64,000 nt of DNA. Origin: Xenophilus sp. Marseille-Q4582. GTDB taxonomy: Bacteria > Pseudomonadota > Gammaproteobacteria > Burkholderiales > Burkholderiaceae_C. Positions 6,424-58,787 of the stretch are shown here, in pieces. The stretch is from contig NZ_CAKAKO010000004.1 in assembly GCF_916700565.1 (NCBI RefSeq), forward strand, positions 744,001 to 808,000. Direction: 5' to 3'. The first letter of the stretch is position 1; the number at the start of each line of letters is the position of its first letter. Under the pieces are notes generated by a model. It was not told the origin of the DNA, did not search any database, and was given only the letters and a program-made list of their open reading frames with translations. A program made the position numbers and the translations under genes.

Positions 6424-7964
6424 GCCTCGTCACTGCCCGCTTGTTTGAAGACAAGCCCAACTACGCCAGCACGACTTTTCCACCGCCGCGCCCGTTTCAA
6501 CAGGCAGCACATGAAGCTCTGCGCCAGGGCTTCCGCGACGGCCACAAGAATCAACTCATCATGGCCCCGACAGGCGCAGGCAAGACCTACCTGGGCCACC
6601 GCATCGCGCACGAAGCGCTACTCAAAGGCCGTCGCGTGGTGTTTCTTTGCGACCGCACCACGCTGATCAACCAGACCAGCAAGACGGCTGACTCCTATGG
6701 GCTGTCGGCGCACGGCATCGTGCAGGCGAATCACTGGCGCCGGGCCACCGAGATGCCCTATCAGATCGCCAGTGCTCAGACCATTGCCAAGCGTGGTTAC
6801 TGGCCTGCGGCTGATGTGGTGATCGTTGATGAGGCGCACACCCAAATGAAGGTGTGGACCGAATTCTCAGCGCAAAGCAAAGCAGCATTCATTGGCTTGT
6901 CGGCCACCCCGTTCTCGTCGGGCCTGGGCAAGATTTTCACGAATCTGATCAACGCCACCACGATGCACGAGCTGACCCAATCGGGGGTGCTGGTGCCGAT
7001 GCGCATCCTTTCGTGCAAGCGCATGGATATGACCGGCGCGGCCACATCTGGTGGCGAATGGACGGATGCAGCCGCCGAAGAGCGCGGCATGGGCATCGTC
7101 GGCGATGTGGTCAAAGAGTGGATCGCGCATGGCGAAGGCCGCAAGACCATTGTGTTTGGCGCCACGATCAAGCACTGCCAGGAATTGGCTCGCCAGTTCC
7201 TTGACGCGGGCGTGATGGCCGCCGTTTTCACGAGCGAGACCACTGCGGCAGAGCGTGAGCTGCTGGTCAAGGAGTACAGCAAGCGCGATTCATCGCTGCG
7301 CGTCCTGATCAGTGTTGAGGCACTTGCAAAGGGGTTTGATGTGCCTGACGTCGGGTGTGTCGTGGATTGCCGCCCCCTTCGCAAGTCCCTTTCCACGGCA
7401 ATCCAGATGTGGGGCCGTGGGCTGCGCGCGAGTCCTGACACAGGCAAGAAGGACTGCATCTTGCTGGACCACAGCGGAAACATCATCCGCTTCGCTGAGG
7501 ACTTCACCAGCATCTTCTATGACGGCTTGAGCGCTCTGGACATGGGCGAGAAGCTGGACAAAAAGATTCGCCGGGAAGAGGACGAGGAAAAGAACAGCAA
7601 AGGGTGCCCATCGTGCGGCTACAAGCCCTTTGCGAAGCGCTGCATGTCCTGCGGGTTTGAGAAGCAATCGCCCTCGATGCAAGAGGCTGCAGCAGGCGTG
7701 ATGCAAGAAGTGGTGATGGCAGGCAAGAAGAAGCTGGCAGACGATCACCGCCACCTGTGGGAGCAGCTTTGCAGCTATGCGCGCGGGCACAGCGCGCCTG
7801 AGCGTCAGGCAGGCCGCGCATGGAACCTGTTCAAGAAGATCACTGGTTTCGCGCCGCCGCGTGAGTGGCGCTTCGATTGCACGCCTAACGCTGAGATCAC
7901 CGCGAACGTGCGCAACAAGATCAAGAGCCTTGATTTGGCCTACCTGAAGGCGGTGCGCGCATGA
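6420..7964 (+). CDS. Phage superfamily 2 DNA helicase with C-terminal zinc finger
   Basis: A 514-residue helicase. Motif I (PTGAGKT, 50-56), motif II (DEAH, 137-140), motif III (SATP, 161-164) and motif VI (QMWGRGLR, 329-336) are all present. A four-cysteine zinc finger follows (C396, C399, C408, C411). It should unwind DNA at the phage replication fork using ATP. Start overlaps the ParB-like stop and the end overlaps the primase start, giving a tight ParB - helicase - primase unit. Confidence 0.93.
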   Translation: MSLVTARLFEDKPNYASTTFPPPRPFQQAAHEALRQGFRDGHKNQLIMAPTGAGKTYLGHRIAHEALLKGRRVVFLCDRTTLINQTSKTADSYGLSAHGIVQANHWRRATEMPYQIASAQTIAKRGYWPAADVVIVDEAHTQMKVWTEFSAQSKAAFIGLSATPFSSGLGKIFTNLINATTMHELTQSGVLVPMRILSCKRMDMTGAATSGGEWTDAAAEERGMGIVGDVVKEWIAHGEGRKTIVFGATIKHCQELARQFLDAGVMAAVFTSETTAAERELLVKEYSKRDSSLRVLISVEALAKGFDVPDVGCVVDCRPLRKSLSTAIQMWGRGLRASPDTGKKDCILLDHSGNIIRFAEDFTSIFYDGLSALDMGEKLDKKIRREEDEEKNSKGCPSCGYKPFAKRCMSCGFEKQSPSMQEAAAGVMQEVVMAGKKKLADDHRHLWEQLCSYARGHSAPERQAGRAWNLFKKITGFAPPREWRFDCTPNAEITANVRNKIKSLDLAYLKAVRA

Positions 7965-50470: not shown

Positions 50471-50630
50471 GAAGCTGTGAACGAATCCGACATGCCCGCT
50501 CATCCCGCCAAAACGCCCGCACTCATCGTTGCAAATGCTCGCCATAGCCCGAGCTATGGCTGCGCTTTGCGCCTCGATTGCGAACGTTTTGACGCTCTGC
50601 TCGGTCACGCCGAATTCATTCACAGCTTCT
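50470..50630. repeat. 161-bp MITE-like element with 17-bp terminal inverted repeats
   Basis: AGAAGCTGTGAACGAAT at 50470-50486 and ATTCATTCACAGCTTCT at 50614-50630 are inverted repeats with one mismatch. Inside lies GCCATAGC-CCGA-GCTATGGC, a perfect 8-bp hairpin. Both strands have short open frames (such as MNEFGVTEQSVKTFAIEAQ on the minus strand) that I recall being annotated repeatedly in related genomes, implying a dispersed repeat. It begins at the glpD stop. Confidence 0.7.
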
Positions 50631-50700: not shown

Positions 50701-51696
50701 GTGAATCCGCCTTCCTCCACCCGTGCGTCCGGCCCCAAGCGCGTGCTGGTGCTGCGCTATTCGCAGACGGGCCAGCTCGACGCCGTCACCGACCGCCTGA
50801 TCGCGCCGCTGAAGGCCGACCCGGCGGTCACGCTGCATGAAGAGCGCCTGCGGCCACAAAAACCCTTTCCCTACCCCTGGCCGCTGCTGCGCTTCTTCGA
50901 CGCCTTTCCCGAATCGGCGCACCTGCAGCCCGCGCCGCTGCAGCCGCTCGCGCTCACGGGCGACGAACGCTTCGACCTCGTCATCCTGCCCTGGCAGGTG
51001 TGGTTCCTGGCCCCGTCGCAGCCGGTCACGGCCTTCCTGCAGCACCCGGTGGCCGCGCGCGTGCTGCAAGGCACGCCGGTGGTGAGCGTGATCGCGTGCC
51101 GCAACATGTGGATGCTGGCCTTCGACAAGTTCAAGGCGCTGCTGGCCGCCTGCGGCGCACGGTTGATCGACAACGTGGTGCTGACCGACCCCGGTCCCAC
51201 CTGGGCCACCTTCATCACCACGCCGCGCTGGCTGCTCACGGGCCGCAAGGGCGGCTTCTGGGGCCTGCCGGCGGCCGGGCTCAGCCCGGCGCAGATCGAC
51301 GGCTGCGCGCGCTTCGGCCAGGCGCTGCGCAGCGCACTCGCCACGGATGCCGAGCGCGGCGACGGTCCGCTGCTGGCCGGGCTGGGGGCGGTGCAGGCCG
51401 AGCCGCGCCTGTTCATCAGCGAGAAGGCGGGCACGCGCAGCTTCTACCTGTGGGGCAAGCTGATCCGTGCCGTCGGCGGCCCCGGCAGCGCGGCGCGGCA
51501 GCCGCTGGTGCTGCTGTACGTGCTCTTCCTGTTCCTGCTCATCATCACCGTCGTGCCGGTGAGCCTGACGCTGCAGGCGCTGGCCCGGCCGTGGTGCCGG
51601 GCATGGCTGCATAGAATCCGCGCCCAGTACGAGCTGCCCTCCGGATCGGCCACGTCGGGCCCGCTGCCCGGCGCCCCGCGCCGCCCTTCGCCATGA
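50701..51696 (+). CDS. darA: DarA-like dialkylresorcinol aromatase
   Basis: A 331-residue protein. A flavodoxin-like start VLVLRYSQTGQLD (FMN loop at 21-25) is followed by PFPYPWPLLRFFDAFPES, FDLVILPWQVWFLAPSQPV and CRNMWMLAFDKFKALL, all matching DarA. A membrane helix (LVLLYVLFLFLLIITVVPV) lies near the end. DarA oxidises a cyclohexanedione to a 2,5-dialkylresorcinol. GTG start; no clear ribosome site. It is the first gene of the biosynthetic operon. Confidence 0.85.
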   Translation: MNPPSSTRASGPKRVLVLRYSQTGQLDAVTDRLIAPLKADPAVTLHEERLRPQKPFPYPWPLLRFFDAFPESAHLQPAPLQPLALTGDERFDLVILPWQVWFLAPSQPVTAFLQHPVAARVLQGTPVVSVIACRNMWMLAFDKFKALLAACGARLIDNVVLTDPGPTWATFITTPRWLLTGRKGGFWGLPAAGLSPAQIDGCARFGQALRSALATDAERGDGPLLAGLGAVQAEPRLFISEKAGTRSFYLWGKLIRAVGGPGSAARQPLVLLYVLFLFLLIITVVPVSLTLQALARPWCRAWLHRIRAQYELPSGSATSGPLPGAPRRPSP

Positions 51697-52835
51697 CGAT
51701 CGACGTCTTCCTGACGCGCACCGCCGCCTTCCTGCCTTTCCCGCCCGTGGACAACGACACCATGGAGGCCCGCCTGGGCCAGGTGGGCGACCGGCCTTCG
51801 CGCGCGCGGCGGCTGGTGCTGCGCAGCAACGGCATCACGCAGCGGCACTACGCCATCGATCCGGCCACGGGCACGCAGGCCATGAGCAACGCGCAGCTGA
51901 CGGCCGAAGCCGTGCGCGCGCTGGGCGAGCCGGCGGAGATCGGGCCCGTGGACGTGCTGGCCACCGGCACCTCGCTGCCCGACCAGCTGCTGCCCGGCCA
52001 TGCCGCGATGGTGCATGGCGAGCTGGGCTGGCCGCGGCTGGAAGTCGTATCCTGCGCGGGCGTGTGCCTGGCCGGTACCGCCGCCTTCAAGCATGCCTGG
52101 CTGGCGGTGCGCGCGGGCGATGCGCAGCGCGCCGTGGCCACCGGCTCCGAGCTGGTGTCCCCCTTCATGCGCGGCGACCACTTCGCGCCGGAGATTGCGC
52201 ACCGCGTGGCGCAACTCGAAGCGAAGCCCGAGATCGCCTTCGAGAAGGATTTCCTGCGCTGGATGCTCTCTGACGGCGCCGGCGCCGTGCTGCTGGAGCG
52301 CGAGGCGCGCGGCCCGCGGCCGCTGCGCGTGGACGGGGTGGACCTGAGTTCTGCCGCGCACGAGCTGCCCGTGTGCATGTACGCGGGCGGCGAGCGTGAC
52401 GAAGCGGGCGCCTTCCAGGGCTACATGCGCACGCCGCCCGCGCAATGGGCCGCGCAGTCCACCTTCGCCATCAAGCAGGACGTGCGCCTGCTCAACGAGA
52501 ACATCGTGCGCGCCACCCTGGGCGAGCCGCTGGCGGCCGTGATGGCGCGGCGCGGCCTGCGCGCGCAGGACATCGACTGGTTCCTGCCGCATCTCTCGTC
52601 ACACTATTTCGCCGAGCCCGTGGCGCAATGCCTGGCGGACATCGGCCTGCCGATTCCGCGCGAGCGCTGGTTCACCAACCTGGCCAGCAAGGGCAACACC
52701 GGCTCGGCCTCGCCCTTCATCATGCTCGACGAGCTGCTGCGCTCGGGCCGCGTGCAGCGCGGCCAGCGCCTCCTGATGTTCGTGCCCGAAAGCGGGCGCT
52801 TCTCCAGCGGCTTCATCCACCTGCAGGCGGTCTGA
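51693..52835 (+). CDS. darB: DarB-like ketosynthase III
   Basis: A 380-residue KAS III-fold enzyme with nucleophile Cys121 (VVSCAGVCLAG), His300 (LPHLSSHYF) and Asn335 (SKGNTGSAS). DarB enzymes condense two beta-ketoacyl/acyl thioesters to a cyclohexanedione. It overlaps darA by four bases, so the two are coupled as in known dialkylresorcinol clusters. Confidence 0.88.
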   Translation: MTIDVFLTRTAAFLPFPPVDNDTMEARLGQVGDRPSRARRLVLRSNGITQRHYAIDPATGTQAMSNAQLTAEAVRALGEPAEIGPVDVLATGTSLPDQLLPGHAAMVHGELGWPRLEVVSCAGVCLAGTAAFKHAWLAVRAGDAQRAVATGSELVSPFMRGDHFAPEIAHRVAQLEAKPEIAFEKDFLRWMLSDGAGAVLLEREARGPRPLRVDGVDLSSAAHELPVCMYAGGERDEAGAFQGYMRTPPAQWAAQSTFAIKQDVRLLNENIVRATLGEPLAAVMARRGLRAQDIDWFLPHLSSHYFAEPVAQCLADIGLPIPRERWFTNLASKGNTGSASPFIMLDELLRSGRVQRGQRLLMFVPESGRFSSGFIHLQAV

Positions 52836-52848
52836 CCGGCGGCTCCCC

Positions 52849-53244
52849 ATGCGACTCGACGACGTTCCGCAGGAAGGCAACGCCACGCTGGGCGGCCACC
52901 GCAAGCTCATGTATGCGCGCGACGCGCAGGGCCGCAGCGTGACCGTGGGTTCGCAGGGCTGGGAAGCCGAGGAGATCTGCACCCTGCATGCCGTCGACGC
53001 GCTGGCGCAGCAGGCGGAGGCCGCGCGCACGCGCGTGCAGGCCGGCCGGGCGTCGCCGCTCGAATACTGGATGTACGCGCGCCGCATGGACGTGGCGCTG
53101 CTCTCGCAGACCAGCGGCTTCTGGCAGTGGCGCGTGCGCCGGCACCTCACGCCGGCCGGCTTCGCGCGCCTCACGGCCGCGCAGCGCGCGCGCTATGCGC
53201 AGGCGCTGGGCCTGTCGGCGGCCGAGCTGGAGCGCCTGCCATGA
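52849..53244 (+). CDS. Conserved small protein of the dar-like operon
   Basis: A 131-residue protein (LDDVPQEGNATLGGHRKLMYARDAQG, EAEEICTLHAVDALAQQAEAAR, EYWMYARRMDVALLSQTSGFWQWRVRRHL). No family recognised. It overlaps the BtrH-like gene by four bases and probably acts with it or with DarAB. Confidence 0.7.
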   Translation: MRLDDVPQEGNATLGGHRKLMYARDAQGRSVTVGSQGWEAEEICTLHAVDALAQQAEAARTRVQAGRASPLEYWMYARRMDVALLSQTSGFWQWRVRRHLTPAGFARLTAAQRARYAQALGLSAAELERLP

Positions 53245-54254
53245 CGGCCGCGACCCCTTCCGTGACGGGCGTGCCTGCCTTCGAGCATCTGCACGCGGCG
53301 CATTGCGAAAGCGGCGTGATGGCCAACATGCTGCGCCACCATGGCCTGCCCATGACCGAGAGCCTGGCCTTCGGCCTGTCGGCCGGGCTGGCTTTTGCCT
53401 ACCTGCCCTTCGTCAAGCTCTCGGGCCTGCCGCTCATCTCGTACCGCATGCCGCCGCGGGCCATCATCAAGGGCCTGCTGTCGCCGCTGGGCGCGCGCTT
53501 TCGCTTCCAGACCTTCGCATCGCCCGAGGCCGGCCAGCAGCAACTGGACGCACTGCTGGCGCAAGGCCGGCCCGTGGGCCTGCAGACCTCGGTCTACTGG
53601 CTGCCGTACTTCCCGCCGGACATGCGCTTTCACTTCAACGCGCACAACCTGCTGGTCTACGGCAAGGAAGGCGACGAGTACCTGATCAGCGACCCGGTGT
53701 TCGAAACGCCCATGCGCTGCGCCGCCGCCGACCTGGCGCGCGCGCGCTTCGCCAAGGGCGCGCTGGCGCCCAAGGGCCTGATGTACTGGCCCGAGGCCAT
53801 CGACGAGAAGGCGGTGCGGCCCGAGGCCGTGCTGCGCGCCATCCGCACCAACGCGCGCCGCCTGCGCGCGCCCATTCCGATCATCGGCGTGCGCGGCATG
53901 CGCGCGCTGGCCAGGCGCCTGGAACGCCTGCCCGTGGACGGGGCACACACGGTGGCCTTCATCGGTCACCTGGTGCGCATGCAGGAAGAGATCGGCACCG
54001 GCGGCGCGGGCTTTCGCTTCATCTACGCCGCTTTCCTCCAGGAAGCCGCGCAGATCACGGGCCGCGAGGTGTTCCGCAGCTTCTCCGACCGGCTCACCGC
54101 CATCGGCGACGACTGGCGCGTGTTCGCCCTGCGCGCCGCGCGCATGGTCAAGGGGCGTGAAAAGGTCGATCCGCCCGCGCTGGCCGCGCTGCTGCGCCAG
54201 CAGGCCGCGCAGGAAGACGCCTTCTTCGCCGAACTCGGCCGCGCCGCGCGTTGA
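53241..54254 (+). CDS. BtrH-like acyltransferase
   Basis: A 337-residue protein with the BtrH N-terminal domain: AAHCESGVMANMLRHHG (Cys22), FHFNAHNLLVYG (His135) and LISDPVF (Asp151) form a papain-like triad. BtrH moves an acyl chain from an acyl carrier protein to an amine in butirosin synthesis, so this protein may transfer the ACP-bound product of the operon. It overlaps the preceding gene by four bases and the possible TTG start of the ABC gene. Confidence 0.8.
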   Translation: MTAATPSVTGVPAFEHLHAAHCESGVMANMLRHHGLPMTESLAFGLSAGLAFAYLPFVKLSGLPLISYRMPPRAIIKGLLSPLGARFRFQTFASPEAGQQQLDALLAQGRPVGLQTSVYWLPYFPPDMRFHFNAHNLLVYGKEGDEYLISDPVFETPMRCAAADLARARFAKGALAPKGLMYWPEAIDEKAVRPEAVLRAIRTNARRLRAPIPIIGVRGMRALARRLERLPVDGAHTVAFIGHLVRMQEEIGTGGAGFRFIYAAFLQEAAQITGREVFRSFSDRLTAIGDDWRVFALRAARMVKGREKVDPPALAALLRQQAAQEDAFFAELGRAAR

Positions 54255-54274
54255 GCGGGCGCCTCCCTTCGCCC

Positions 54275-55183
54275 ATGCTCGCCATCGACGGCCTGTTCCA
54301 TCGTTATGCGGGCGCCGCGGCGCCGGCCCTCGACGGCGTGCGCCTGCAGGCTGCGCGGGGCCAGGTGCTGGGCCTGCTGGGGCCCAACGGCGCAGGCAAG
54401 ACCACCTTGATCTCGCATCTTTCGGGCGCGCTGGCCCCGCAGCGCGGGCGCATCACGGTCGATGGCGAGCCGCTGGCCGCGGTGCGCGCCCGCACGCCCA
54501 CGCGCATCGGCGTGGCGCCGCAGGAACTGGCCTTCTACCCCACGCTCACGGTGCAGGAGAACCTGGCCTGCTTCGCCGCCGCCAGTGGCCTGCGCGGCGT
54601 GCGGCGCGCCGAGCGCATCGCCGCCTGCCTGGACTTCGCGCAACTGCACGCCTTCGCAGGCGTGCGGGCCGAGCAGCTCTCGGGCGGCCTCAAGCGCCGG
54701 CTCAACCTGGCCATCGCGCTGCTGCCGGAGCCCGAGCTGCTGCTGCTGGACGAGCCCACCGTGGGCGTGGACCCGCAGTCGCGCGCCTTCGTGCTCGACG
54801 CCATCCGCGCGCTGGCCGACCGCGGCGCGGCCGTCATCCATGCCTCGCACTACATGGAGGAGATCGAGGCCATCGCCGACCGCGTGCTGATCCTGGACCA
54901 CGGCCGCGTGCTGCGCGACGGCGCGCTCGACGACTTGCTGGCCGAAGGCGCCACCCTGCTCGTCCTGCGCGCCGAGGGCCTGAGCGCCGAGCGCCTGCAG
55001 CGCTGGGGCCAGGTGGAGCAGGGGCCCGACCCGTGGTGCCTGCGCCTGGGCGCCGGCCAGCGCGCGAGCGCCGTGCTGGTGGCGCTGGAGGCCGAAGGCG
55101 TGGACGTGCGCCAGGCCGAGTTCGGCCGCGCGAGCCTGGAACAGCTGTTCATGGCGCTCACGCACCGCGCCTTGCGGGATTGA
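54275..55183 (+). CDS. ABC transporter ATPase
   Basis: A 302-residue ATPase. Walker A GPNGAGKT (36-43), signature LSGGLKRRL, Walker B LLLLDEPTVGVD and switch HASHYM are intact. It pairs with the permease 1 base downstream in an ABC-2 exporter. A TTG at 54251 overlapping the BtrH-like stop could add eight residues. Confidence 0.92.
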   Translation: MLAIDGLFHRYAGAAAPALDGVRLQAARGQVLGLLGPNGAGKTTLISHLSGALAPQRGRITVDGEPLAAVRARTPTRIGVAPQELAFYPTLTVQENLACFAAASGLRGVRRAERIAACLDFAQLHAFAGVRAEQLSGGLKRRLNLAIALLPEPELLLLDEPTVGVDPQSRAFVLDAIRALADRGAAVIHASHYMEEIEAIADRVLILDHGRVLRDGALDDLLAEGATLLVLRAEGLSAERLQRWGQVEQGPDPWCLRLGAGQRASAVLVALEAEGVDVRQAEFGRASLEQLFMALTHRALRD

Positions 55184-55184
55184 C

Positions 55185-56345
55185 ATGCTCGCCGCCCTGA
55201 TCCGCAAGGAACTGCTCGCCCTGGTGCGCGACGTGCACGGCCTGGCCGTGCTCTTCGCCATGCCGGCCGTGTTCATCGTGGTCATGTCGCTGTCGCTCAA
55301 GGAGTACTACAGCCCGCCGCTGACCACGCTGCGCTACGCGCTGGACCTGCAGGACCGCGGCGCGCCGGCGCAGCTGGTGCGCGCGGCCTGGCTGCGCACG
55401 CATGGCGACCCGCAGCCGCTGCCGGCCGACTGGCGCGAGGCGCTGCGCAGCGGTCGCCTCAAGTACGTGGTGCTGCTGCAGCCGGGGCTTTCAGAGGCGC
55501 TGGAGGCCGAGGCGCTGCCGCGCAGCGCCCACATGCAACTTCTGGCCGAGCCCGGCATCGACGGCCACCTGCTCAATGCCCTGCGCGCCGAACTGGTGGG
55601 CGCGGCGGGCGAAGTGAAGGGCCGGCTGGCCTTCCAGGTCGCGGGCGCACCGCCGCTGGGGGGCGATGGCGCCTCCATGGCTGCGCTGGTGCAGGCCGAG
55701 CGCTTCGCGGGCGGCGCCGTGCGGCCGACGGCCGTGCAGCAGAACGTGCCGGCCTGGCTGGTGTTCGCGATGTTCTTCGTCGTCGCGTCCATGGCCGGGC
55801 TGGTGGTGCAGGAGCGGGCCACGGGCGCGCTGGGCCGGCTGCAGAGCCTGGGCGTGCCGCGCGGCGTGATGCTGGCCTCCAAGGCTTTGCCCTACCTGGG
55901 CGTGAACGCGCTGCAGGCGGCGCTGATGCTGGCGCTGGGCCTGTGGGGGGTGCCCGCGCTGGGCGGCGACCGGTTGTCGCTGGCCGGCGTGCAGGCCGGC
56001 GCGCTGCTCGCGGTGCTGGGCGCCATCAGCCTGGCGGCCGTCGGGCTGGCGCTGGCGCTGGCCTGCGCCGTGCGCACGCATGCGCAGGCGGCTACGGCGG
56101 GGCCGGCGCTCAACGTGGTGATGGCCGCGATCGGCGGCATCATGGTGCCCACTTTCGTCATGCCCGAATTCATGCAGCGCGTGGCCCAGGCCTCGCCCAT
56201 GAACTGGGCGCTGGAGGCGCTGATGACCGTGCTGCTGCGCGGCGGCGGCGTGGCCGACGTGGCCGCGCCCGTGGGCCGGCTGGTGCTGCTGGCGGCGCTG
56301 CTGTTCGCGCTGGCGGGCTGGCTGTTTGGAAGAAGAAGGAGCTGA
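55185..56345 (+). CDS. ABC-2 type transporter permease
   Basis: A 386-residue permease. An N-terminal helix (LAVLFAMPAVFIVVMSLSL), a periplasmic loop of some 150 residues, then five C-terminal helices (WLVFAMFFVVASMAGLVVQERATG, LLAVLGAISLAAVGLALALAC, VVMAAIGGIMVPTFVMPEFM). Fits exporters of lipids or secondary metabolites. Start ATG 55185 follows the ATPase stop by one base. Confidence 0.9.
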   Translation: MLAALIRKELLALVRDVHGLAVLFAMPAVFIVVMSLSLKEYYSPPLTTLRYALDLQDRGAPAQLVRAAWLRTHGDPQPLPADWREALRSGRLKYVVLLQPGLSEALEAEALPRSAHMQLLAEPGIDGHLLNALRAELVGAAGEVKGRLAFQVAGAPPLGGDGASMAALVQAERFAGGAVRPTAVQQNVPAWLVFAMFFVVASMAGLVVQERATGALGRLQSLGVPRGVMLASKALPYLGVNALQAALMLALGLWGVPALGGDRLSLAGVQAGALLAVLGAISLAAVGLALALACAVRTHAQAATAGPALNVVMAAIGGIMVPTFVMPEFMQRVAQASPMNWALEALMTVLLRGGGVADVAAPVGRLVLLAALLFALAGWLFGRRRS

Positions 56346-56349
56346 TGGG

Positions 56350-56622
56350 ATGGACCGTGCGGCGCTGATCGCCGAACTGCCGGCCGTGCTGCTGGCCGCC
56401 GTGGAGCGGCCCGAGCCGGAGGGCGGCCTGCGCGAGGACGAACCGCTGTTCGGCCCCGAGGCGCGGCTGGACCTGGATTCGCTGGACGCGCTGCAGCTGT
56501 CGATGGCGATCCAGAAGCGCTATGGCGTGCGCATGCCCGACAGCAAGGAAACGCGCCGCGCGCTGGAATCCCTCGCGCACCTGGCCGACCACCTGCTCGC
56601 GCATCGGCGCGCGGCGGCCTGA
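56350..56622 (+). CDS. Acyl carrier protein
   Basis: A 90-residue acidic protein with LDLDSLDALQL, in which Ser44 should carry the 4'-phosphopantetheine arm. It should hold acyl intermediates for the ketosynthases and the BtrH-like transferase. ATG 56350 is chosen; an ATG at 56326 adds an MEEEGADG extension inside the permease gene. Confidence 0.88.
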   Translation: MDRAALIAELPAVLLAAVERPEPEGGLREDEPLFGPEARLDLDSLDALQLSMAIQKRYGVRMPDSKETRRALESLAHLADHLLAHRRAAA

Positions 56623-56638
56623 GCGCCGCAACTGAGGG

Positions 56639-57172
56639 ATGCGTTTCGTCGTGGTCGGCACCAGCGGCGCGGGCAAGACGCACTTCGCCCGCGCGCTGGC
56701 GCAGGCCATCGGCGGCGCGCACATCGAACTCGACGCCCTGCACTGGGGCCCGAACTGGCAGCCCGTGCCCCCCGCGCAGTTCGCGGCGGCTGTGCATGCG
56801 GCCGCCGCGGGCGAGCGCTGGGTGGCCGACGGCAACTACAGCGCCGTGCGGGAGGCGCTGTGGCCGCGCGCCACGCACATCGTGTGGCTCAACTTCAGCC
56901 GCGCCACCGTGTTCCGGCGCGTGCTGGGCCGCACGCTGGCGCGCACGCTGCTGCGCACGCCGTTGTGGCACGGCAACCGCGAATCGCTGCGCTCGGCCTT
57001 CTTCTCGCGCGATTCGATCCTGCGCTGGTCCTGGACCACCTTCGAACGCAACCGCGCCCGCTATGCGGCGCTGCGCGCGGACCCGGCCTGGTCCGGCCAC
57101 GTGTGGGTCGAGCTCAGGTCGCCGGCCGAAGCCGCAGCCATCCTCGCGCGGCATGCGCGCAGCACCCCATGA
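56639..57172 (+). CDS. P-loop kinase (topology-modulator-like)
   Basis: A 177-residue protein with a P-loop VVGTSGAGKTHFARALA, IELDALHWGPNW and ERWVADGNYSAVREALWPRA, as in the FlaR/adenylate-kinase-like family annotated as topology modulators. It probably phosphorylates a nucleotide or small molecule. Its role in this operon is unclear, though its end overlaps the ketosynthase by four bases. Confidence 0.7.
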   Translation: MRFVVVGTSGAGKTHFARALAQAIGGAHIELDALHWGPNWQPVPPAQFAAAVHAAAAGERWVADGNYSAVREALWPRATHIVWLNFSRATVFRRVLGRTLARTLLRTPLWHGNRESLRSAFFSRDSILRWSWTTFERNRARYAALRADPAWSGHVWVELRSPAEAAAILARHARSTP

Positions 57173-58275
57173 GCGCCGCGCCGGTGTTCATCGCAGGCCG
57201 CGGCCTGGTCAGCAGCCTCGGCTGGGGCTGGGCGCCGGCGAAGGCCGCCCTGCTGCAGGCGCCGCGCCCCGCCGCGCGCATGACGCTCGCCGACGGCCAG
57301 GCCTGGCCGCTGCACGCGCTGCCGCCCCTGGCCGGAACCTGGCAGCAGCGGCTGGCGCAGGCCGTGCGCGCCGTCGTGGCGCAGGCCGGTGTGCCGGCCC
57401 GGCCGGGCCTGCCGCTTTTCATCGGCTCCTCCTCGCTCGACATGGGCCATGAGGAAGAGCAGGCGCGGCACGGCGGCGCGGCGTTCGCGGGCGACCTCTG
57501 CAGCCTTGCCGACGCGGTGGCGCATGCGCTGGACTGGCCCGGCCCGGTGTTCTGCTTTTCCACCGCCTGCACGTCGGCCGCGCAGGCGCTGTGCGCCGCG
57601 CGCGACTGGCTGCGCGCGGGCGAGTCGGAGCACGCGCTGGTGCTGGGCGTGGAGATGGACAACGGCTTCACCCCCGCGGGCTTCGCCGGCCTGCAGCTGC
57701 TGTCGCCGGGCCGGGCGCGGCCTTTCGCGGCCCAGCGCGACGGCCTGGTGCCGGGGCAGGCCGTGGCGGCGCTGCATCTGCAGACCCGGCCCACGCGCTG
57801 GCGCCTGGCCGGCGCGGCGAATGTGGTCGACGGCAGCCAGCCCACGGGCGCCGTGCCGCAGGCCCTCGAGGCGGCGGCGCGCCAGGCGTTGGCCGAGGCC
57901 GGCTGCCGCGCGGAACAGGTGGATCGGATCAAGGTGCAGGCCGCGGGCAGCCCCGGCAACGATGCGGCCGAGGCGCAGGCCCTGCGGGCGCTGTTCGGCA
58001 CGCCGGCCGCCACGCCGCCGTTGATGGGCTTCAAGCCCTGGATCGGCCATTGCATGGGCGCTTCCGCGGCCGTGGAACTGGCATTGCTGCTGGGCTGCCT
58101 GGAAGACGGCATCGATCCGGCCGCGCTGCCGCCCGATGCGCAGCCCGACCCGGCCTTCGGCCTGCGCTGGGCGCGGGCCGCCGCGCCATCGCCGCGCGTG
58201 GACCGCGTGCTCTTCCACACCCTGGGCTTCGGCGGCGGCCACAGCGCCCTGGTGCTCGAGGCGCAACGCCCATGA
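57169..58275 (+). CDS. Ketosynthase (KAS I/II fold) lacking one catalytic His
   Basis: A 368-residue beta-ketoacyl synthase-like protein. The nucleophile is present at Cys134 (FSTACTSAAQ) and the last histidine at His294 (PWIGHCMGASAA). The first His, normally in HGTGT, is replaced by Ala259 in QAAGSPGND. Loss of that residue should impair decarboxylative condensation, so the enzyme may transfer acyl groups and not extend chains. Overlaps the next gene by four bases. Confidence 0.82.
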   Translation: MSAAPVFIAGRGLVSSLGWGWAPAKAALLQAPRPAARMTLADGQAWPLHALPPLAGTWQQRLAQAVRAVVAQAGVPARPGLPLFIGSSSLDMGHEEEQARHGGAAFAGDLCSLADAVAHALDWPGPVFCFSTACTSAAQALCAARDWLRAGESEHALVLGVEMDNGFTPAGFAGLQLLSPGRARPFAAQRDGLVPGQAVAALHLQTRPTRWRLAGAANVVDGSQPTGAVPQALEAAARQALAEAGCRAEQVDRIKVQAAGSPGNDAAEAQALRALFGTPAATPPLMGFKPWIGHCMGASAAVELALLLGCLEDGIDPAALPPDAQPDPAFGLRWARAAAPSPRVDRVLFHTLGFGGGHSALVLEAQRP

Positions 58276-58787
58276 CCGGCGGCGCGCGCAGCGTCCCGGG
58301 CGCAGGCGGCTGGCGCCTCCAGGCCCATGAGGGCCAGGCGCCGCTGACGCCGGACTGGCACGACGAACTGGCGCGCCGGCTGGGCCATCGCCCGCGCCGG
58401 CTCGGCGAATGGACCGAAGTGGCGCTCTACGGGGCGCTGCGCTGCCTGCACGCGGCGGGCGAGGCGGCCCTGCCGCCGACCGCGCGCCTGCGCCTGCTGA
58501 GCCGGGGCGGCCCCGCGCAGGCGCAGCGCGCCGCCCTCGCGCAGTCGCGCGAAGGCTTGCCCATGCCCTTCACCTTCATGCAGAGCCAGCCGGCCATCAC
58601 GCTGGCCGCGCTCGCACAGGCGCTGCACTGGCAGGGAGATGCGGCCTTCGTCGCGGCCCGCGACGTGGACGCAGCCATCTGGATGGGCCTGCATGGCGCA
58701 GGCGCGGCGGGTGCGCTGGTGGGCGTGGTGGAGGCTGGCGGCCCCGGCGGACTGCGCAGCGAATGGTGGCGCTGGACGCGCGCCTGA
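58272..58787 (+). CDS. Ketosynthase-like accessory protein
   Basis: A 171-residue protein with an N-terminal region resembling a truncated ketosynthase (PFTFMQSQPAITLAALAQALHW, VAARDVDAAIWMGLHGAG) but no nucleophile. Might be a partner or chain-length factor for the atypical ketosynthase. It ends the operon. Confidence 0.6.
   Translation: MTGGARSVPGAGGWRLQAHEGQAPLTPDWHDELARRLGHRPRRLGEWTEVALYGALRCLHAAGEAALPPTARLRLLSRGGPAQAQRAALAQSREGLPMPFTFMQSQPAITLAALAQALHWQGDAAFVAARDVDAAIWMGLHGAGAAGALVGVVEAGGPGGLRSEWWRWTRA

Follow-up and report, generated by a model that had tools for sequence, protein, structure and literature searches.

What might be made by a short operon that unites two dialkylresorcinol (DAR) enzymes with a BtrH-like acyltransferase, an acyl carrier protein (ACP), two ketosynthase-like proteins and an ATP-binding cassette (ABC) exporter? 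The question is raised by positions 50701-58787 of a 64,000-nucleotide stretch of Xenophilus sp. Marseille-Q4582 (assembly GCF_916700565.1, contig NZ_CAKAKO010000004.1, positions 744,001 to 808,000 of the forward strand), the whole of which is referred to here as the window. A preliminary description, made from the sequence alone, counted ten tightly spaced genes, and ten open frames do follow one another on the plus strand, with overlaps at six of the nine junctions. It also proposed a new lipid-type pathway, knowing of no described pathway with these parts. The operon, however, is already described in kind, and what is new in it is one extra gene together with some enzyme details. With high confidence, we regard it as the DAR arm of a pathway for an arcuflavin-type yellow membrane pigment.

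The comparison that carries this reading is with the dar cluster of Azoarcus sp. BH72 (azo0293-azo0283), which accounts for the DAR part of the pigment arcuflavin (PMC3949708). Table 1 of that paper names azo0283 to azo0293 as darK, J, C, I, H, G, F, E, D, B and A, and gives their products, in the same direction, as a hypothetical protein, a ketosynthase, an ACP, an ABC permease, PilT, Phd, an ABC ATPase, a BtrH-like peptidase, a conserved hypothetical protein, the DAR-cyclase and the DAR-aromatase. The Phd/PilT pair (darG and darH) lies between the ATPase and the permease in BH72 and is absent from the window; once it is set aside, the order A-B-D-E-F-I-C-J-K on one strand is that of the window, where a single extra gene, encoding a P-loop protein that does not appear in the BH72 table, stands between C and J. 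This likeness is judged by the published table, sequence comparison having been made to other loci. Nine of the ten genes therefore have a published counterpart of the same order and with a known product, the P-loop gene being the exception. The same paper relates, citing earlier work, that the DAR proteins of Azoarcus produce DAR when they are expressed in a heterologous host. It further reports that free DAR was not detected in BH72, where the DAR is predicted to be esterified, that the pigment was lost in mutants of two polyene genes, and that arcuflavin fragments contain the DAR and a polyene. Both types of cluster are also recorded there for Variovorax paradoxus, Dechloromonas aromatica and Sideroxydans lithotrophicus.

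The dar block is present in many genomes, and is thus not a product of chance. Genome contigs were searched with DarB and the best 80 of 320 relatives were kept, so that the tallies hold for close relatives. Counted by tblastn (E 1e-3), DarB and DarD are found in all 80 loci, DarA and BtrH in 79, the ACP and the ABC ATPase in 73 (three of the ATPase matches, in L023, L055 and L064, being of 30-34% identity and far from the dar block), the ketosynthase in 72, the permease in 68, DarK in 67 and the P-loop protein in none. All nine of the shared genes occur in 57 loci, 52 of them colinear on one strand; in four of the 57 the ACP-ketosynthase-DarK block is placed first, and in L066 the five genes from the ATPase through DarK lie on the opposite strand. 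Some of the 23 loci with fewer genes are at contig ends, and others, L055, L059 and L064 among them, lack an ABC pair at the expected place. Xenophilus azovorans (L001) is the closest relative that has a name, its DarB being 79% identical; the genus member L104 shares its sequence with L001.

Arc/xan-like polyene genes occur in the same genome as the dar operon. Three proteins encoded by polyene-like genes of two related loci (L053 and L055), chosen by reading of the frames, served as queries against the assembly of the window (G000). Their counterparts on contigs C3 and C2 are an exporter of the MMPL type (41%), an AMP ligase (45%) and a ketosynthase (55%), with almost the full query length aligned in each case. 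Above their family cut-offs, one locus (L095) also holds a LolA-like protein, an ACP and a reductase of the FabG type, and another (L096) a halogenase-like protein and a ketosynthase with a half-size ketosynthase partner. Matches below cut-off, or similarity to L053 and L055 alone, point to further proteins nearby: an acyltransferase, a polysaccharide deacetylase, a possible dehydratase and a methyltransferase, the last of them weak. About 3 kb from the C3 genes there is a chorismatase-domain gene (PF21168, above cut-off) that is found in none of 14 control genomes. The preliminary description had taken the operon for a minimal set apart from polyene pathways, a view that does not survive the presence of arc-like polyene genes at two other places in the genome. 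The same three-place split is seen in BH72, which is described as having two arc loci and a dar cluster, the latter some 20 locus tags from one arc locus (PMC3949708). A novel-looking operon would thus be one arm of a pathway that is split over three genome places, which constitutes a trap for cluster-by-cluster annotation.

The halogenase-like gene is FAD-dependent in type (PF04820, above cut-off) and is located at G000:C2:3648-5300, where it follows the genes for the polyene ketosynthase and the half-size partner. The Azoarcus arc genes, as given in PMC3949708, include a halogenase, arcA, and the polyene of the window strain might likewise be halogenated.

Polyene genes are also associated with dar genes in other genomes. 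Relatives of the exporter or the AMP ligase (E 1e-20) are found in the fetched darB flanks of 17 of the 80 loci, although the match in L066 (32%) is weak and that in L060 partial. Within a family sample of 200 genomes, BtrH is found in six and the exporter in 42, and the exporter is present in five of the six dar genomes against 42 of the 200 overall (Fisher one-sided p 0.0017, with relatedness ignored, the window's genome included and the same 200 genomes assumed for both searches).

The identities proposed in the preliminary description for DarA, DarB, the BtrH-like transferase, the operon's own ACP, the atypical ketosynthase with its ketosynthase-like partner and the ABC exporter have held up. 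DarB passes the curated cut-off of its NCBIfam model (562.6 bits against 450) and falls below that of the narrower NF053539 (449.7 against 550); its match to the StlD structure 5gk0 has an E value of 3.6e-123, and C125, H300 and N335, which we take to be the Cys-His-Asn active-site triad, are kept in 83, 82 and 83 of 83 aligned rows, respectively. DarA has no Pfam or NCBIfam match, and its profile reaches a best E value of 0.21 against the PDB. The AlphaFold 2 (AF2) model of DarA (pLDDT 87) comprises a flavodoxin-like domain with a long C-terminal helix, and its PDB matches by Foldseek include many WrbA/flavodoxin entries; the first rows are human receptor entries, presumably crystals with flavodoxin fusion partners. 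A literature search on DarA as a flavin-linked resorcinol aromatase found nothing. The first gene is assigned as DarA because it adjoins darB in 79 of the 80 loci, the 80th being cut by a contig end, and because of its flavodoxin-like model. In the remaining proteins, ABC_tran, ABC2_membrane_3, PP-binding, ketoacyl-synt, BtrH_N and DUF4872 all exceed their Pfam cut-offs, PP-binding in DarC with 24.7 bits against 20.8, and D51-S52 of DarC is kept in 74 of 74 aligned rows.

Features of the dar operon, with positions counted from the first nucleotide of the window
Gene and product	Position	Strand	Basis or remark
darA, flavodoxin-like DAR aromatase/condensing protein with long C-terminal helix	50701..51696	+	GTG start; beside darB, AF2 model
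darB, StlD/DarB-family ketosynthase joining two beta-ketoacyl units	51693..52835	+	NF005293, StlD structure match, C125/H300/N335
darD (Azoarcus paper name), DarG family of NCBIfam, small protein	52849..53244	+	NF053536
darE (Azoarcus paper name), DarH of NCBIfam, BtrH-related acyltransferase	53241..54254	+	NF053550, BtrH_N + DUF4872
darF, ABC transporter ATPase	54251..55183	+	TTG start; ABC_tran E 4.6e-32
darI, ABC-2 type permease	55185..56345	+	ABC2_membrane_3 E 1.6e-20
darC, acyl carrier protein	56326..56622	+	TTG start assumed; PP-binding E 2.8e-5
P-loop ATPase/kinase-like gene, probable passenger, overlapping darJ start	56639..57172	+	sub-cut-off family matches
darJ, ketosynthase, Gln replacing HGT histidine	57169..58275	+	ketoacyl-synt E 2e-17
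darK, putative ApeC-like truncated chain-length-factor partner of darJ, 171 amino acids	58272..58787	+	AF2 model, PDB match 6qsp_B

The overlaps are of the ATGA or TTGA type at darA/darB, darD/BtrH, BtrH/ABC ATPase, P-loop/ketosynthase and ketosynthase/darK, and the ACP frame, read from its TTG start, overlaps the permease gene. A scan for promoters and terminators gave nothing above shuffles. At 50537-50565, after a glpD-like frame, there is a palindrome-bearing intergenic stretch whose 29 bases are single-copy in the window and of which a 13-base core recurs in L001 and L104 (same contig). Plasmid records with a DarB relative number 59, all of them below 60% identity and the best at 41% among the matches listed, and the dar block is absent from the two plasmid regions inspected. 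Three Streptomyces plasmids (NZ_CP109562, NZ_CP108465 and NZ_CP108315) carry a DarA relative (32-33%) adjoining a DarB relative (37%), and these pairs stand outside both Proteobacteria and Bacteroidota.

Every NCBIfam match of DarJ is below cut-off (best 144.4 against 407). One of these matches is to AmcF, the cispentacin ketosynthase (107.8 bits against 325), which is reported to act together with a small partner protein (PMC10698177). DarJ was aligned in 75 rows, made up of the window and 74 relatives (one a duplicate), with numbering from the codon at position 57166, one before the ATG. Cys135, Lys290 and His295 are kept in all 75 rows, and the position of the HGT histidine, set by alignment with two polyene ketosynthases (L055 and L096), is occupied by Gln in 70 (Gln258 in the window) and by His in five (L031, L032, L068, L071 and L072). 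The HGT histidine of ketosynthases acts in decarboxylation. DarJ therefore lacks the Cys-His-His active site with an HGT histidine, which is presumably the triad of ApeO-type ketosynthases.

DarK has no family match of its own and hits no Pfam family, and across 12 members ketoacyl-synt is matched in one and Ketoacyl-synt_2 (E 0.1) in one. In the PDB, its AF2 model (pLDDT 87) is matched best by the smaller ApeO-ApeC chain, 6qsp_B (E 2.6e-6, TMq 0.65, a loose root-mean-square deviation of 6.9, 14% identity), with other ketosynthase-fold proteins ranking after it. R42-R43 of DarK is kept in 69 of 69 rows and C58 is invariant across the aligned rows. ApeC is reported to have a conserved Arg30-Arg31 that is thought to meet the ACP (PMC8358021), and the DarK pair may be its counterpart. 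Judged by its model, the last gene may encode a half-size chain-length factor resembling ApeC. As with ApeO-ApeC of aryl polyene clusters, a full-size ketosynthase adjoins a half-size partner, although DarJ differs from ApeO in its Gln at the HGT position and DarK, at 171 amino acids, is shorter than ApeC. DarJ-DarK looks like a ketosynthase/half chain-length factor pair, either elongating or acyl-loading.

The BtrH-like protein passes the cut-off of the DarH_acyl model (476.4 bits against 300), and retains H21-C22-E23 and H135 in 82 of 82 rows. Its family is named an acyltransferase in NCBIfam and a peptidase in the Azoarcus table. Searched by sequence against the PDB, the BtrH alignment has five weak matches (E >= 0.047), all from one designed-protein series, and a search of the open-access literature brought up no paper that seems to test a BtrH-type protein as an ester synthase.

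The route that we envisage, in which the roles of the BtrH-like protein, DarJK and the ABC exporter are inferred from sequence, would begin with DarB joining two beta-ketoacyl thioesters, one of them probably carried on the ACP DarC, and with DarA aromatising the ring to produce a 2,5-dialkylresorcinol. The ApeO-ApeC-like DarJ-DarK pair would load or supply the acyl chain on DarC. Through its conserved Cys and His, the BtrH-like protein may transfer to a resorcinol hydroxyl the aryl-polyene acyl group that the arc-like loci in other parts of the genome would produce, and the ABC exporter may act with the LolA/MMPL machinery of the polyene locus in carrying the pigment towards the outer membrane. 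The most likely product predicted for the window strain is an arcuflavin-type polyene-DAR ester. That the BtrH-like protein forms this ester is a tentative assignment, whose chances we place slightly on the unfavorable side of balanced. The broader proposition, that it represents the missing ester synthase of arcuflavin- and flexirubin-type pigments and that loss of the HGT histidine has turned DarJ-DarK from a chain-elongating pair into an acyl-loading enzyme for DarC, appears rather doubtful.

An ATGA overlap links the P-loop gene to the start of the ketosynthase gene. All NCBIfam and Pfam matches of its product are below cut-off (best 63.9 against 215; DNA topology modulation-like, AAA_33). 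None of the 80 loci has the gene, although the junction between ACP and ketosynthase can be seen in 72 of them, and the gene is also missing from the two other dar-bearing members of the genus (L103 and L104). Within the genus, only relatives of 33-36% are found, elsewhere in G005 and G012, and relatives of 56-65% identity occur in G029, G041, G159 and G200, none of which is among the six dar-positive genomes; the 1.5 kb flanks of these four relatives contain no dar gene. As read from the translations, three loci have other extras at the same junction, L044 a hydrolase-like frame and L048 and L049 unrelated ones. The ATPase-permease junction is occupied in L072 by a thioesterase-like frame and in L103 by a DUF1016-like one, just as it carries Phd/PilT in the BH72 table. 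The frame in L103, a dar-bearing genus mate, is at about 6430-6940 on the operon's strand. Because the P-loop gene is absent from the 80 loci and from the genus mates, and because other extras occur at the junctions, a role for the kinase as a pathway enzyme is held to be unlikely; the gene is probably a passenger.

Several observations weigh against a DAR arm that is tied to a polyene. The sixth dar genome of the family sample (G080) has a complete nine-gene dar block (L112), but a search of this genome for the polyene exporter and the AMP ligase, the only two polyene genes sought there, found neither, so that a dar operon can exist without a detected polyene partner, and this organism is possibly a DAR-only producer. 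The AMP ligase is present in every one of 15 genomes from the genus (that of the window among them) and the exporter in all 14 apart from the window's, but the BtrH protein in only three of the 15, which implies that the polyene does not need dar. With respect to the joining step, the authors of the flexirubin work, as far as their proposal is set out in PMC3992019, assign the ester bond to the ligase-like FlxW and not to BtrH. The case of G080, together with the darABC cluster of Pseudomonas chlororaphis, which leads to a free resorcinol (PMC6403133), lends some weight to the idea that the operon makes a free dialkylresorcinol or cyclohexanedione, a signal or antifungal that is exported by the ABC system and is unconnected to any polyene. 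We consider this improbable, given that darB is found together with a DarG-family gene in all 80 loci and with a BtrH gene in 79, that polyene genes are adjacent in 17, and that BH72 is reported to be without detectable free DAR, with esterification predicted (PMC3949708).

Least credible is the new lipid pathway of the preliminary description, in which BtrH would attach a resorcinol lipid to some other acceptor and the P-loop kinase would activate or phosphorylate it. The ATGA overlap and the absence of the P-loop gene from all 82 related loci (one a duplicate) would suit it, but the nine other genes match the published cluster, the closer P-loop relatives reside in genomes other than the six dar-positive ones and have no dar gene within 1.5 kb, and unrelated genes occupy the same junction in other loci. 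Given the published cluster, and with polyene loci in the genome, we reject it as a free-standing pathway. For the DAR arm of an arcuflavin-type pathway, the remaining interest lies in which enzyme joins the resorcinol to the polyene, and in the job of a ketosynthase without the HGT histidine, both of which are common to many Betaproteobacteria.

Two further systems place the operon among known ones. The HPR cluster of P. chlororaphis (darABC, darSR) shares the DarA/DarB/DarC core, but the account in PMC6403133 mentions neither a BtrH nor an ABC gene nor an additional ketosynthase gene, and the product is a free resorcinol. The flexirubin clusters of Bacteroidota (flx with darA/darB) are alike in combining DarA and DarB with a polyene pathway, the two parts being joined by an ester (PMC3992019). 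Among the DarG-family models of NCBIfam is a flexirubin one, and its cut-off is not reached by the window's protein of 131 amino acids (119.8 against 170), even though it passes the general DarG_fam model (163.4 bits, cut-off 70). The flexirubin polyene, moreover, is described as starting from tyrosine, whereas the chorismatase gene in the genome of the window suggests hydroxybenzoate.

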